From positions 1 to 50,919 of the forward strand of contig PWEO01000196.1 in assembly GCA_003553525.1 (NCBI GenBank): DNA of 50,919 nucleotides. The letters are read 5' to 3'. A program made the position numbers and the translations under genes. The stretch comes from Clostridiaceae bacterium (GTDB lineage Bacteria > Bacillota > Clostridia > Peptostreptococcales > T1SED10-28). Below are positions 40,526-46,870 of this stretch, piece after piece. Position 1 is the first letter of the stretch. Every line of letters begins with the position of its first letter. The notes beneath the pieces were generated by a model. That model saw only the letters and a list, made by a program, of their open reading frames with translations, was not told where the DNA came from and searched no databases.

Positions 40526-40559
40526 ACAGGGCCGGGACCCTTTCTCGGTCCTGTTTTTT
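40526..40559 (+). terminator. Terminator after glgP
   Basis: A 12-bp stem (ACAGGGCCGGGA / TCTCGGTCCTGT, two G-T pairs) with a 5-base loop is followed by six T. Confidence 0.88.
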
Positions 40560-40598: not shown

Positions 40599-40627
40599 TT
40601 GTAACTTATCGACGGAGAAGGTATAAT
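40599..40627 (+). promoter_or_regulatory. Promoter of the maltodextrin ABC operon
   Basis: TTGTAA and a perfect TATAAT are separated by 17 bases. Confidence 0.7.
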
Positions 40628-40664: not shown

Positions 40665-40678
40665 TGCAATCGATTGCA
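40665..40678. promoter_or_regulatory. LacI-family-type operator (site 2)
   Basis: TGCAATCGATTGCA is a perfect 14-base palindrome with central CG, 38 bases past the -10 of the maltodextrin operon. It matches site 1 before GH31. The LacI-type gene at the end of this operon is the natural candidate binder. Confidence 0.7.
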
Positions 40679-40727: not shown

Positions 40728-42053
40728 ATGAAAAAAGGATTAGGCTTATTGTTAATCTTAGTTTTAGGTTTTGCTTTAATGGCTTGCGGAGGAGACGACA
40801 ACGGAGATAACGGCGAGACGGATCTTGATGAAGCGGAAGGTCTTACCGCGGAGATTTCCGTACAGGTTGAAGAAGACTGGCTGCCGCTTTATGAAGCGGC
40901 AAGAGACAGAGTTTTAGAAGACAATCCCGATGCTACCATTAATTTTATTGAAACACCGTCATTTGACCATCTAGATGTACTGGATTCAACGGATCCCACC
41001 AATGAAGACGTAGCGGATCTTTACGCGATCCCTGCAGACCGAATCTTCGGCCTGTATCAAAATGACGCCTTAGCAGCACTAAATGCTTTAGAATTAGCAG
41101 ATCGGGTTGGAGGATTTGATGATTACGAAGCAGGACTTGGCGGAAACTTTATTATTAACGACGAATATATGGCCTTTCCCATGAACATCGAAACACTGAT
41201 CAACTTTGCAAACACAGCCAATGCCGCAGACTTAGGGATTGACCTTGGTTCTGACATTGAATTTACGGATTTAGATCCTGAAGATATGTTAATCCCAGTA
41301 TTTGATGCCTGGTTTGGAGTAGCTTTTACCAACAGTGCAGAAGTTGAATTTTTAGGACATGATGAAGATGGAGAATTATACTCCGACTTAACCCAGGATT
41401 TTGACGAATTGGATCCGGAAAAACAAGCGGTATTCGAAGCTTTGTTTAACTACTGGCAAGCTCATCATGAAGCGGGCACCGACCTTTGGGACGAAGAAGC
41501 GGCATGGGGTTATATGGACGCTGAGTTCACCACAGGCGGGAACACTGCCCTTCGAATTGAAGGACCCTGGTCTACCGGAAACCTTTCAAACCAAGCGGGC
41601 GACGGAGAGGACCTGGATATTTTACCACTAAGTCAGGTAACTATTAACGGAAATCCCATGGCTCACTGGCAAGGAGGTTGGGGACTGGTTCTTAATGCAA
41701 GAATTGAAATGGATGAAGACCAAATGCTACTTGGTCACTTGATGATTGAAGAAATCATGAACACCGACTATGCAGTAGAGTTCTTTGAAGCCAGCGGAAA
41801 AATCATGGAAAATGTAGACGCTTCGGTGTATACCGATTCCGACCAACTTTCCGATACGGATAAAGAAGTTATTGCAGCGGTTATCGAATCCTATAACGAA
41901 GCTCCTGCAAGACCACTGTTTACCGAATGGGGTCAAGTTTGGGATACCTGGAAAAACGGAATGCTTTCCTGGTCATCAGTAAACCCTGCTAACGCAGAAG
42001 AAGCTTACCAGGAAATCAAAGCTTCCTTTGAAGCCATGATGCTAAACTTCTAA
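40728..42053 (+). CDS. malE: Maltose/maltodextrin-binding lipoprotein (ABC importer)
   Basis: This 441-residue extracellular solute-binding protein has a signal peptide ending in LMAC, so C20 is the lipidated residue. Its position before two sugar-type permeases and MalK points to maltodextrin binding. The mature part is strikingly acidic: by my count about 93 Asp+Glu against 12 Lys+Arg in 422 residues. Aromatic residues are frequent (WQGGWG, FNYWQAHH), as expected for sugar stacking. ATG 40728 follows AGGGAGG. A hairpin follows the stop. A binder of another alpha-glucan is possible. Confidence 0.87.
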   Translation: MKKGLGLLLILVLGFALMACGGDDNGDNGETDLDEAEGLTAEISVQVEEDWLPLYEAARDRVLEDNPDATINFIETPSFDHLDVLDSTDPTNEDVADLYAIPADRIFGLYQNDALAALNALELADRVGGFDDYEAGLGGNFIINDEYMAFPMNIETLINFANTANAADLGIDLGSDIEFTDLDPEDMLIPVFDAWFGVAFTNSAEVEFLGHDEDGELYSDLTQDFDELDPEKQAVFEALFNYWQAHHEAGTDLWDEEAAWGYMDAEFTTGGNTALRIEGPWSTGNLSNQAGDGEDLDILPLSQVTINGNPMAHWQGGWGLVLNARIEMDEDQMLLGHLMIEEIMNTDYAVEFFEASGKIMENVDASVYTDSDQLSDTDKEVIAAVIESYNEAPARPLFTEWGQVWDTWKNGMLSWSSVNPANAEEAYQEIKASFEAMMLNF

Positions 42054-42094
42054 AAGCAGTATTGCAACAAAATTGAATATCCATTAAACTAATG

Positions 42095-42137
42095 AAGGTG
42101 CAGGGAAAAGGGCTAAGCCTTTCTCCCTGCACCTTTT
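42095..42137 (+). terminator. Intercistronic hairpin after malE (partial terminator or mRNA stabiliser)
   Basis: A perfect 12-bp outer stem AAGGTGCAGGGA / TCCCTGCACCTT encloses an imperfect inner stem (AAAGGGCT / AGCCTTT), followed by only four T. The right-arm CACCTTTT can alternatively pair with the next gene's AAAAGGTG ribosome site (42139-42146). Confidence 0.7.
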
Positions 42138-42152
42138 GAAAAGGTGAAAATG

Positions 42153-42611
42153 ATGTCTCGAAATTACCGAATAACTCAAAAAAAACTCTATATCCTGTTA
42201 ATCACAATCAGTATTTTGATTCTGGTCCTTTCCTTGGAAGCTTTAATGGAAGTCAAGGATCAGGGTAGATTCTTACAATGGTTTGAAGGAATTCAGGCCG
42301 AGGAAAGCTTTAGTATTTCTGAAGCAGAAGCTTTTGATACCTACGTTTCAGGTCATATCCTTTTGTATATGCTGAACTTAGTCATTCCTCTAGGGTTTGC
42401 CCTTCATACTTTTTTCGCTTATCAAAAGGCAAAGATCAACAGCCTGTTTATTTATCTCTGGTTTATCATGCTGTTGGGAGGTATGGCATTTACCCTCATC
42501 AGCTGGAACCTTGATTCATTGTTTTACTACATCAGATTGATGGCTTACCTGGTATTAATCGGCACCACATTGTCTCTAAGTAAGGAAATCACAGTCAGTA
42601 AAAATTGGTAA
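42153..42611 (+). CDS. Uncharacterised membrane protein in the maltodextrin ABC operon
   Basis: I do not recognise this 152-residue protein. It has four likely transmembrane segments: one near the N terminus (about residues 11-29), then after a roughly 40-residue acidic extracytoplasmic loop three more (about 68-88, 96-117, 124-140). Its C-terminal half resembles no family I know. It sits between the binding lipoprotein and MalF; the MalF gene starts 13 bases after it, so it is co-expressed with the importer. Start 42153 has the best spacing to AAAAGGTG; ATG 42150 is next to it. It may assist the importer (inference). Confidence 0.75.
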   Translation: MSRNYRITQKKLYILLITISILILVLSLEALMEVKDQGRFLQWFEGIQAEESFSISEAEAFDTYVSGHILLYMLNLVIPLGFALHTFFAYQKAKINSLFIYLWFIMLLGGMAFTLISWNLDSLFYYIRLMAYLVLIGTTLSLSKEITVSKNW

Positions 42612-42624
42612 AGGTGGGAGTACC

Positions 42625-44718
42625 TTGAGAAAGTATAATCGATACTTAGTTGATGAAATAGGAAACACCTATGAACGTAAAAATCAATATCTATTAGAGA
42701 TTGCGTTACTGCAGGAAGAAATGGAAAAGGTCGGCGGGCAAGAGAGAAAAGCACTGAAAGAAAAAGTGCAGGAACTGCTGAAAAACAAAGGCAAGCACCC
42801 TTATCATCAAGCCTACAAAGCCTATGAAGAGGAGAAATCTCTTTTTTGGAAAGGGTTGAAAAAAGAAAGCAAAGCCTATGAAAGTACTTTGGAGAAAGAC
42901 TTATCAAGAAACGTGAGAATTTTCAAAGTGCAGGATTTTAAAGCCAGGAAAAAAGAAATATTTTTTAAGAACTATATAGAATTAGGCTACGAAGCCACCT
43001 ATTATTATGAAGAAGCAAAGCTGGAACAGAAGTATTATCCGGAGATTATCTCCACATATACGGAATATCAAAAGCATTTAAAAGAAGCGAAAGAACAACG
43101 TCAAAAGCTTAGCGCAGAAGAGGAAGCGCAGGCAAAAGAGCGTTTTAAAGAATACAAACAGGAAAAGAAAGAAGAATTGAAAAACAGCATTGAATCCTTG
43201 AAAAAAAAGCGAAAAGAAAAACTGATTTCCGATAAAGCATTAAAAAATGGGAAAAAAGAGTTGAAACATCGATATAAAAAAGCCTTGACCCTAAAAGCGT
43301 TGGAGGCTCCTAAAAAAGCAAATCAAGAGCTGATCCAAAACTTGAAGCATGAACTGAAGGAAAAGCCTAAGCAGCTGAAAAAAACCCTGAATGCGGATAT
43401 CGCCGATAAAAGACGAAAAATCCCCATCGAAGTGGAAAAAACAAAACCGGTCATTGCATACAGCACTATTTTTCTACCGGGTCTGGGACAATTGTTAAAC
43501 AAACAGTTTGTCAAAGCAGGACTGTTTTTATTAGCTTCTTTTTTCATTTATTTTGCGGCCATACCCTATGCCCTTGGTTACGGAAATTATCAGGGGGACG
43601 GAATTTCAGGTCTTATTACCTTGGCAGAGGGGGCCCCTAGAGTTTATACTTCCATGATGTTTTTGATTGAAGGAATCTTAGCGATTTTTCTGGTATTGAT
43701 CGCCATCGGATTTTTAGGGATTTCTTTGAAGGATATTAAGGGTGTGGAAGAAAAATCCATCCGGGGGATACGACCGAAAAATTGGTTTGAAACCCTGGAA
43801 AATATAAAACAGGAAGGCTTTCCCTATGTGGTATCCTTTCCCGCATTGTTTGTGATTATTTTTATTGTGGTAGTACCGGTTATTACCACCTTGATGCTGT
43901 CTTTTACCAATATGGATCCCCAGCATCAGTCGAAATTTTCCTGGATCGGTATTGATAACTATCGAACCCTGATCTTAGGTGAAGGACTGGCGGGTTCCGT
44001 GTTCTGGCAGATTCTTGGTTGGACGTTGATCTGGACCTTTGTGGCAACCACTTTTGCCATTCTGATCGGTTTTCTCCTGGCCCTGATCACCAATCATGAA
44101 CGGATCCTGGGGAAAAAAATCTTTCGAACAATTTATCTCCTGCCCTGGGCGGTACCGGCCTTTATCACAATTTTATTCTTTAGCATCATGTTTTCTCCCA
44201 ACGGAGCCTTAACCGACATTATCAGCAACGTTTTCGGAGAGCGAATTATCGTTAAACACAGTACGAATTTAACAAGACTGACCTTAATCGGCCTGCAAGG
44301 CTGGCTGGGAAGTGCCTATATCTTCCTGTTGACCACGGGAGTTCTGCAGGCCATCCCCTCGGATTTATACGAGGCCGCGGAAATCGACGGAGCAACGATC
44401 TGGCAAAAGACCCGACGAATCACGATGCCGATTGTACTCTTTCAAACCGCACCCTTGTTAATTACTCAGTATACCTTTAATTTCAATAACTTCTCCATTA
44501 TTTATCTGTTCCATGGAGGAGGTCCTTTTAACCCCACTAGATACGGAAATCTTGCGGGAGGCACGGATATTTTAGTCTCCTATATTTACAAACTTACCAT
44601 GGTCAATCAATACCAGGCCATCAGTGCGGCGATTATTTTGTTCGTATCCCTGGGAGTCATGTTCTTTGCTTATCTGGGATTTAGAAACTCGAAGGCCTTT
44701 AAGGAGGAGAGATTATAA
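42625..44718 (+). CDS. malF: MalF-type sugar ABC permease with a long charged N-terminal extension
   Basis: This 697-residue protein is far longer than most MalF proteins. Residues 1-275 are hydrophilic and Lys/Glu-rich, with heptad-like helices (about 30-55, 150-260) suggesting coiled coil in the cytoplasm. Residues 278-315 hold FLPGLGQLLNKQFVKAG, like the PGxGQ motif of small two-helix membrane domains. Another helix lies at about 345-365. Residues 398-697 are a standard permease with the coupling loop EAAEIDGATIWQKTRRITMP at 583-602. TTG is the start, behind AAGGTGGGAG. Its stop overlaps the malG start. Confidence 0.87.
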   Translation: MRKYNRYLVDEIGNTYERKNQYLLEIALLQEEMEKVGGQERKALKEKVQELLKNKGKHPYHQAYKAYEEEKSLFWKGLKKESKAYESTLEKDLSRNVRIFKVQDFKARKKEIFFKNYIELGYEATYYYEEAKLEQKYYPEIISTYTEYQKHLKEAKEQRQKLSAEEEAQAKERFKEYKQEKKEELKNSIESLKKKRKEKLISDKALKNGKKELKHRYKKALTLKALEAPKKANQELIQNLKHELKEKPKQLKKTLNADIADKRRKIPIEVEKTKPVIAYSTIFLPGLGQLLNKQFVKAGLFLLASFFIYFAAIPYALGYGNYQGDGISGLITLAEGAPRVYTSMMFLIEGILAIFLVLIAIGFLGISLKDIKGVEEKSIRGIRPKNWFETLENIKQEGFPYVVSFPALFVIIFIVVVPVITTLMLSFTNMDPQHQSKFSWIGIDNYRTLILGEGLAGSVFWQILGWTLIWTFVATTFAILIGFLLALITNHERILGKKIFRTIYLLPWAVPAFITILFFSIMFSPNGALTDIISNVFGERIIVKHSTNLTRLTLIGLQGWLGSAYIFLLTTGVLQAIPSDLYEAAEIDGATIWQKTRRITMPIVLFQTAPLLITQYTFNFNNFSIIYLFHGGGPFNPTRYGNLAGGTDILVSYIYKLTMVNQYQAISAAIILFVSLGVMFFAYLGFRNSKAFKEERL

Positions 44719-45674
44719 TGGATAGACCCAACAACGGCCACAGAAAAACCTTTTTGGAAAAAATGGGAGAAAAATTTCCCTTCTTCCAAAGAAAAAACAA
44801 AAGCAAACTGTATCTCTCGGACCGGCAACCCTTAACCCTGCAAGGAAAAATCGGGTTGGTGATCGCGCATCTGGTTTTAATCATTTGGTCCGTGATCATT
44901 ATCTGGCCCTTATATCAAATGGTGGTTTCCGCTTTTAACGGACTACAGGATGGATATTTAGTGCTTAATCGGAATTTTGAGTTTTCCTTAAAGCATTTCG
45001 AATACCTTTTTAACGAGACTTTGTACCTGGCCTGGGTGAGAAATACCATTTTTATTTCTGTTTCCACAGCGCTGCTAACCCTGTTGTTCGTATCTTTTAC
45101 GGGGTATGCCTATTCCAGGTATCGCTTTAAAGGACGAAAAGCTTCCTTAATGGCGATTTTATTAATACAGACCATTCCGGTTTTTGCAGGAATTACGGCC
45201 TTCTTTACGATGCATTCGATCCTATCTTCCGTACTTCCCTATTTTACCCGGCAAATGATGCTGATTCTGATTTACTCCGGTGGAGCAATTGCGGCGAACA
45301 CTTTTATTTTAAAAGGGTATATCGACTCCATTTCCACGGAGCTGGATGATGCTGCAAAAATTGACGGTTGCAGCAATATGCAGATTTACCGTTTGATCAT
45401 TATGCCCGTGGCCAAACCCATGCTGATGATCATCGGCCTATGGTCTTTTATCGGACCCTTTATGGACTTTTTAATGCCCCGGGTGCTGCTTACCAGTCCG
45501 CGGTCTTATACCTTAGCCGCGGGACTCTTTACCCTGGTTAACGATTTTCGAACCATGAATCAGCCGGCCTTTGCCGCTGGCGGATTATTAACGGCGATTC
45601 CTATTGTGCTGCTGTTTGTAAGTCTGCAAGGACAGCTGGTATCCGGTCTTTCCAAAGGATCGGTAAAAGGTTAG
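44718..45674 (+). CDS. malG: MalG-type sugar ABC permease
   Basis: This 318-residue permease has about six helices and the coupling loop ELDDAAKIDGCSNMQIYRLI near residues 212-231. The N-terminal 40 residues are basic and cytoplasmic. It pairs with MalF to form the channel. The ATG overlaps the malF stop (TAATG), behind AAGGAGGAG, so translation is coupled. Confidence 0.92.
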   Translation: MDRPNNGHRKTFLEKMGEKFPFFQRKNKSKLYLSDRQPLTLQGKIGLVIAHLVLIIWSVIIIWPLYQMVVSAFNGLQDGYLVLNRNFEFSLKHFEYLFNETLYLAWVRNTIFISVSTALLTLLFVSFTGYAYSRYRFKGRKASLMAILLIQTIPVFAGITAFFTMHSILSSVLPYFTRQMMLILIYSGGAIAANTFILKGYIDSISTELDDAAKIDGCSNMQIYRLIIMPVAKPMLMIIGLWSFIGPFMDFLMPRVLLTSPRSYTLAAGLFTLVNDFRTMNQPAFAAGGLLTAIPIVLLFVSLQGQLVSGLSKGSVKG

Positions 45675-45713: not shown

Positions 45714-46799
45714 ATGAAGGTCGTTTTGAAAAATATCGGTAAAAAATACGAGGGTAGAGAAGAATTCACCTTGAAAGATATTAATTTAGAGGTTGAAGAT
45801 CAGGAATTCTGTGTGATTTTAGGGCCCTCCGGCTGCGGAAAGACCACCATGCTTCGAATGATCGCGGGACTGAACTCCATCACGGAAGGGGATTTGCTGT
45901 TTAATGATAAGCGGATGAATAAAGTCGCCCCGAAGGACCGGGATATTGCCATGGTATTTCAGTCCTACGCTCTTTATCCTCATATGACAGTTTATGAGAA
46001 TATGGCCTTTTCCCTGACTATGCGAAAAGAACGAAAAAGCCTTATTGATGAACGGGTACAGGAAGCGGCAAAGGTTCTTCAAATGGAAGAAAATCTTTAC
46101 GTCAAGCCTTCGGACATCTCCGGTGGTCAGCGTCAGCGGGTAGCCCTTGGAAGAGCCATGGTTCGAAATCCCAAAGTGTTTTTAATGGATGAGCCCCTAT
46201 CGAATCTGGATGCAAAACTTCGAGAGCATATGCGGGTAGAGTTGATCCGGCTTCACAAACAGTTAGGGACCACAACCATTTATGTAACCCATGATCAAAC
46301 CGAAGCCATGACCATGGCCAGTAAGATTGTACTCATGGACGACGGAATTATACAGCAGGTGGGAAAACCGGATGATCTTTATATGCGGCCGAAAAATCTA
46401 TTTGTGGCGGCTTTTATCGGTTCCCCTTCCATGAATATCATCAAAGGAAAAATTGAGCAGGGCCGGTTTGTTTCCGATAATCGCCTGATGCAGATCACCC
46501 CGACGGAAACTCATAAGGAAGGACTTAAAGCCTATGAGGGAAAAGCGGTTTCTGCCGGGATACGACCCGAGCGGTTTGAATCCGGCGGAGAGTACGGAGA
46601 TACCTTCAACGTGAATGTGGAAGTAGTAGAAATGCTGGGGAAGGAAAAGATTCTTTACGGAAAACTCGATGACGGTCATGAGCTGATTATCTCCACCCCG
46701 GGACATTATAAATACGAAGGGGGAGAACGCTATTCCTTCGGATATGAACTGGAGGCCATCCATTATTTTGATCAGGAGACGGGAGAGCGCATTAATTAA
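45714..46799 (+). CDS. malK: Sugar ABC transporter ATPase (MalK/MsmX/UgpC type)
   Basis: This 361-residue ATPase has Walker A GPSGCGKTT at residues 37-45, Q-loop VFQSYALYPH, signature ISGGQRQR at 135-142, Walker B VFLMDEPLSNLD at 155-166 and VTHDQTEA. A C-terminal OB-fold (TOBE) regulatory domain from about 240 includes AGIRPER. It energises MalFG. Many Firmicutes keep this ATPase elsewhere as a shared subunit; here it is in the operon. ATG follows GAGGAGG. Confidence 0.93.
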   Translation: MKVVLKNIGKKYEGREEFTLKDINLEVEDQEFCVILGPSGCGKTTMLRMIAGLNSITEGDLLFNDKRMNKVAPKDRDIAMVFQSYALYPHMTVYENMAFSLTMRKERKSLIDERVQEAAKVLQMEENLYVKPSDISGGQRQRVALGRAMVRNPKVFLMDEPLSNLDAKLREHMRVELIRLHKQLGTTTIYVTHDQTEAMTMASKIVLMDDGIIQQVGKPDDLYMRPKNLFVAAFIGSPSMNIIKGKIEQGRFVSDNRLMQITPTETHKEGLKAYEGKAVSAGIRPERFESGGEYGDTFNVNVEVVEMLGKEKILYGKLDDGHELIISTPGHYKYEGGERYSFGYELEAIHYFDQETGERIN

Positions 46800-46870
46800 T
46801 TTCCTCGGAATAATAGAGAATCCCTGGATGAATTTTGCTATGCAAGCTAAATGAATAACGAGGGGTGAAG

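Follow-up and report, generated by a model that had tools for sequence, protein, structure and literature searches.

Among type I ABC importers, MalFGK2 serves as the reference. In the stretch of DNA analysed here (50,919 nucleotides of a Clostridiaceae contig, referred to below as the window), a malF-type gene codes for about 275 residues ahead of the membrane-spanning part of the permease, which raises the question of whether this extension is a genuine part of an importer and what it could do there. The initial annotation described it as a coiled coil followed by a PGLGQ two-helix domain. Our analysis identifies the product of this gene as the MalF subunit of a distinct clade of maltodextrin-type importers with a linked gene for a four-transmembrane (4-TM) protein and their own MalK.

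A genuine long MalF with an ordinary permease core

The long form of malF (42625..44718, + strand) encodes a permease of 697 amino acids. Its reading frame opens at a TTG codon, with GGTGGGAG upstream, 13 bases past the preceding gene, and its 3' end reaches the start of malG. Both the open reading frame and the Lys/Glu-rich character of the extension (K 21%, E 15%) agree with the initial annotation. Apart from the odd layout itself, nothing favours an artefact in which two genes were fused by misassembly or a missed stop codon, and we regard this as extremely improbable: the same uninterrupted layout, which a phyletic survey had been proposed to look for, recurs in dozens of genomes that are independent of one another, some of them from isolates. 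The separate gene start envisaged near residue 390 was not found either; in five species of the genus, no internal start codon with a clear Shine-Dalgarno sequence is present at residues 262-300 or 370-415. The dN/dS ratio of residues 1-275 is 0.07-0.18 within the genus, which indicates purifying selection. The long layout is therefore real and selected.

Residues 478-681 match BPD_transp_1 (PF00528; E 3.7e-15, 56.6 bits against a cut-off of 26.4), and residues 440-690 match the MalF profile NF008232 (E 2.7e-50), with a score of 171.6 bits, below the cut-off of 392 for this E. coli MalF equivalog. Judged by these profiles, the protein is MalF-like but outside the equivalog. It combines the BPD_transp_1 domain, a MalF fold that includes TM1-TM2 and an operon with a binding protein, MalG and MalK, as expected of a MalF-type CUT1 permease. 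In the AlphaFold2 model of the full-length protein, built on 72 homologues (mean pLDDT 82.5), residues 291-689 superpose on residues 10-509 of E. coli MalF. The best E. coli MalF crystal entries give Z 22.6-24.3, and the best superposition (Z 24.3, rmsd 3.0 A, 334 residues, 28% identity) places model residues 302-689 on 18-509. The domain match, the model and the superposition together define the permease core TM3-TM8 (43810..44715, +) with its EAA loop (44371-44430).

The protein thus shares with E. coli MalF of MalFGK2 (PDB 4jbw, 2r6g) the eight-TM core including TM1-TM2, the EAA loop and an operon with malE, malG and malK functions. In contrast, the E. coli system has neither the 275-residue extension nor a 4-TM partner, and E. 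coli MalF carries a periplasmic P2 loop between TM3 and TM4 that is absent from the window MalF, where a short loop at about residues 427-443 takes its place.

The PGLGQ motif initially noted is indeed present (residues 285-289, 43477-43491), but it does not mark an added domain. The hairpin that contains it (residues 276-395, 43450..43809, +) is the ordinary TM1-TM2 of MalF, because short Firmicutes MalFs start just before the same hairpin and the superposition on E. coli MalF runs from its residue 10. These short proteins (MdxF/MalC type; L016-L019, L118-L132) share the PGxGQ-type TM1-TM2 hairpin and the core at 32-45% identity; they differ in their length of about 430-465 residues, in having no 4-TM gene and usually no adjacent malK. 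Membrane proteins of the DUF5683 and DUF6677 families also have a TM helix preceded by a PGxGQ-type motif (best member E 0.0027-0.0029), but the window segment is MalF TM1-TM2 and the window protein scores 12.3 bits for DUF5683, below the gathering score of 26.7. Two other MalF-like permeases (L024, L025) have a charged, probably helical insertion of about 100 residues after TM helix 1 and ahead of the core; it is an unrelated elaboration, likely on the outer side.

The extension is a predicted compact cytoplasmic domain

Structure prediction of residues 1-275 (42625..43449, +), one of the checks initially suggested, gave a confident domain (AlphaFold2 on this part alone, pLDDT 95.5, pTM 0.84). 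A beta-hairpin (7-17) is followed by eight helices (21-33, 38-53, 59-88, 95-115, 122-161, 164-197, 203-225 and 229-265). The coiled coil of the initial annotation is not supported, since no single heptad register runs through the extension, the helix periods are 3.2-3.7 and the predicted eight-helix domain is compact. The cytoplasmic location proposed earlier from charge is, by contrast, upheld by homology. E. coli MalF has its N-terminus in the cytoplasm and, as the model can be superposed on that protein, the extension is on the cytoplasmic side. With high confidence in the model, we describe it as a predicted compact, ordered cytoplasmic domain ahead of a normal MalF TM1.

Conservation is concentrated at the N-terminus, at residues 113-124, at a helical-hairpin turn (199-208) and directly before TM1. 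Among 72 sequences, R18, F113, I201 and E269 are invariant. The N-terminal motif (L/Y)D(E/D)IGN-Y-RKN-YL-E (residues 7-27; 42643..42705, +) has D10, R18, K19, N20 and Y22 conserved in at least 90%. The turn LKxKxKxGLISxKAxxN (residues 192-208; 43198..43248, +), with invariant or nearly invariant I201, S202 and A205, joins helices 164-197 and 203-225, and the membrane-proximal segment DI(S/A)DxRRKTPxExEK (residues 254-275; 43384..43449, +) conserves R263, R264, P267 and E269.

The extension has no family match in Pfam or NCBIfam, and a sequence-profile search of the PDB with the 400-residue N-terminal part of the long MalF found none. Fold comparison with the PDB gave no credible match (lowest Foldseek E 0.73; highest VIA Z 8.2, with rmsd 14.5 A), which is not proof of a new fold. 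The likeness of hairpin 163-231 to ribosome recycling factor-type helical hairpins (Z 7.8, 69 residues) was judged generic, and a possible likeness between the LISxKA turn and hairpins of the SHOCT type is unsupported by any Pfam match.

The extension is basic (71 Lys+Arg against 48 Asp+Glu), with a positive net charge in 71 of 72 sequences and a median of +16. Together with a weak structural likeness to elongated BAR-type helical domains, this could mean that it lies on the inner leaflet or binds RNA or the ribosome and so localizes the transporter. We find this doubtful: the BAR matches (Foldseek E near 1, rmsd about 11-16 A) are at the level of any long-helix bundle, the best BAR/F-BAR comparison (Z 8.2, rmsd 14.5 A) falls within the range of long-helix matches, and the specific conserved motifs and the co-occurrence with the 4-TM protein point instead to a protein partner.

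Distribution and origin of the long form

Scanning the species contigs of GTDB yielded 98 relatives; 80 of them were retained. MalF lengths are bimodal: complete long forms have about 680-710 residues, the short ones about 430-465, and only fragments at contig edges lie between. The long form occurs in Tissierellales, Clostridium, Fusibacter, Peptoniphilaceae and some spirochaetes; its Bacillota hosts include Soehngenia, Tissierella, Clostridium, Proteiniclasticum, Fusibacter, Acetoanaerobium, Epulonipiscium, Helcococcus and Murdochiella. Among the spirochaetes it is present in Treponema putidum and in two Spirochaetes MAGs. In a tree built from the core only, the 83 long MalFs form one clade against 19 short ones (SH-aLRT 100), suggesting that the extension was probably gained once. 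The position of the spirochaetal proteins inside Bacillota groups points to transfer. Plasmid and phage MalFs among the best matches listed are short-type in appearance.

A membrane protein encoded next to the long MalF

The most informative feature of the locus, missed by the initial annotation, is the upstream gene that co-occurs with the extension. It encodes a membrane protein of 155 residues (42144..42611, +) without family match. A homologue sits between malE and malF in 75 of 76 long-MalF loci, with sequence weighing less than position and size in some distant assignments; in two loci (L076, L108) the gene was located by tblastn and not by the ORF picker. In most members, three or four hydrophobic helices exceed the threshold used, and we read the family as four-TM. 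In one survey, of 98 relatives, long MalF and the 4-TM protein are found in the same 13 (13/13). In a second, across the phylum, 5 of 398 genomes have a long MalF, and the same five give strong matches to the 4-TM profile (E <1e-39); the remaining weak matches (E 3e-5 to 0.01) are partial and lie in unrelated or broken frames. At short-MalF loci the gene was detected in 0 of 17, even at E 10. No plasmid match was found for the protein, and no family or PDB match was accepted; SdpI, a candidate for the family, matched only 1 of 53 members (E 0.003). The 4-TM protein is thus a divergent, unclassified membrane protein and a near-obligate partner gene of the long MalF.

In Treponema putidum (L083) the extension is present and no 4-TM protein was detected in the operon or the genome. 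This species offers a natural test case for an extension working without the 4-TM partner.

Distances were correlated across 53 loci, with partial correlations conditioned on the MalF core and MalG. The extension shows its strongest correlation with the 4-TM protein (r 0.81; partial r 0.53, 0 of 1000 permutations), ahead of the MalK NBD (partial r 0.36), the MalK regulatory part (0.30), its own adjacent hairpin (0.21) and MalE (0.20). Because saturation and unequal rates can inflate distance correlations between fast-evolving proteins, these values are supporting evidence only.

Operon organization and the MalK ATPase

The order of the long-MalF operon is malE-[4-TM protein]-malF-malG-malK. 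The malE-type gene for a maltodextrin-binding lipoprotein (40728..42053, +) probably starts at ATG 40728 rather than TTG 40674. Its product is tied to maltodextrin-binding proteins only via a family profile (maltose/maltodextrin-binding protein 2xd2, E 1.4e-13), and no Pfam solute-binding match was obtained even at E 1. Upstream of it, after glgP, lie a terminator at 40533-40553 and, at 40599-40627, a promoter-like site (TTGTAA-17-TATAAT). Next comes a perfect palindrome at 40665-40678, TGCAATCGATTGCA, which is likely to serve as operator for the LacI-type regulator encoded at 46865.

Between malE and the 4-TM gene, a stem-loop (42094..42136, +; -31.5 kcal/mol, z -6.2) is a probable internal terminator. 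In clostridia, internal terminators set the ratio of binding protein to translocator (PMC9045158), and by analogy the stem-loop would be consistent with such a role. The 4-TM gene lies past it, grouped with the translocator genes. Comparable stem-loops were found by a strict search in 13 of 68 long-MalF loci.

Downstream, malG (44718..45674, +) encodes a protein with BPD_transp_1 that matches the MalG profile NF008231 (E 2.2e-36). It is followed by a malK-type gene (45714..46799, +) for an ATPase with an OB_MalK domain. This gene directly follows malG in all 48 long-MalF loci with long flanks and is near malF in just 2 of 17 short-MalF loci. In multitask NBDs, residues N84, K74, D77, R104, E110 and K154 are conserved or involved in the interface (PMC7658222). 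The window MalK belongs to the same NBD family as MsmX/MsmK and keeps K74, D77, R104 and K154, but it has S84 and L110 and so lacks the multitask MsmX signature (Asn84, E110). Among the MalKs of long operons, Ser84 is found in 74 of 74 and E110 is lost in 72 of 74, which makes this MalK look, by its sequence, like a dedicated ATPase. The closest other NBDs of the same genome are only 40-44% identical to it.

What the extension could do

With a genuine and conserved extension on the cytoplasmic side, it is reasonable to expect a role that goes beyond transport. The anatomy of the long MalF is well supported; its function we infer. A search of the literature on MalF extensions, maltodextrin importers and accessory subunits found nothing on this layout and no functional data on any member.

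The initial annotation suggested tethering, and in the window malQ and glgP lie directly upstream of the operon and glgB downstream. An elongated, charge-rich extension could act as a scaffold that holds these cytosolic glucan enzymes, or glycogen, at the transporter exit. This appears rather improbable, because malQ or glgP is found within about 10 kb in only 25 of 48 long-flank loci. The enzymes may be encoded elsewhere. There is no match to a carbohydrate-binding family, and the proposal has gained no positive support.

Near-obligate pairing with a small membrane protein could also reflect a role limited to assembly, and small accessory proteins are known for other membrane complexes. The extension would then stabilize MalF or guide its insertion without regulating it, and the 4-TM protein would be an assembly factor. 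This is unlikely, if conceivable: the same family includes short MalFs that lack the extension, and a cytoplasmic domain of 275 residues is large for such a role.

Our best, still tentative, reading joins the extension and the 4-TM protein in a single accessory translocator module that would act on MalK, on coupling or on assembly. The single long clade, the ordered and selected extension, the 4-TM gene found in two surveys in exactly the long-MalF genomes and grouped with the translocator genes, the dedicated-looking MalK and the way in which divergence of the extension correlates with that of the 4-TM protein and of MalK all speak for it; the extension of T. putidum, with no detectable 4-TM protein, speaks against it. 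The co-occurrence of long MalF and 4-TM protein could alternatively reflect one ancestral operon inherited whole. Within the accessory-module reading, the 4-TM protein would pack within the membrane, close to the extension and to MalF TM1-TM2. The extension would reach the MalK dimer and adjust coupling, assembly or the on/off state as a built-in regulator or clamp. Such a module might replace regulation by soluble partners such as EIIAGlc in other bacteria. A step further, and only slightly less probable, is a reading in which the MalF-fused helical domain and the dedicated 4-TM subunit would jointly gate or couple the MalK ATPase, as a form of intrinsic control. The earlier suggestion that the extension senses transporter state comes close to the accessory-module reading, whose mechanistic part is itself a proposal. 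Intrinsic control by such additions is, as far as we could find, undescribed for MalFGK2-type importers.

A widespread clade of MalFGK2-type importers in anaerobes thus carries an unclassified domain with a confidently predicted fold, and with it a tightly linked membrane protein that is likewise unclassified; two unnamed protein families gain a concrete partner and context. If the extension and the 4-TM protein belong to the translocator, this importer would have subunits, and probably a mode of regulation, that are absent from the model system.
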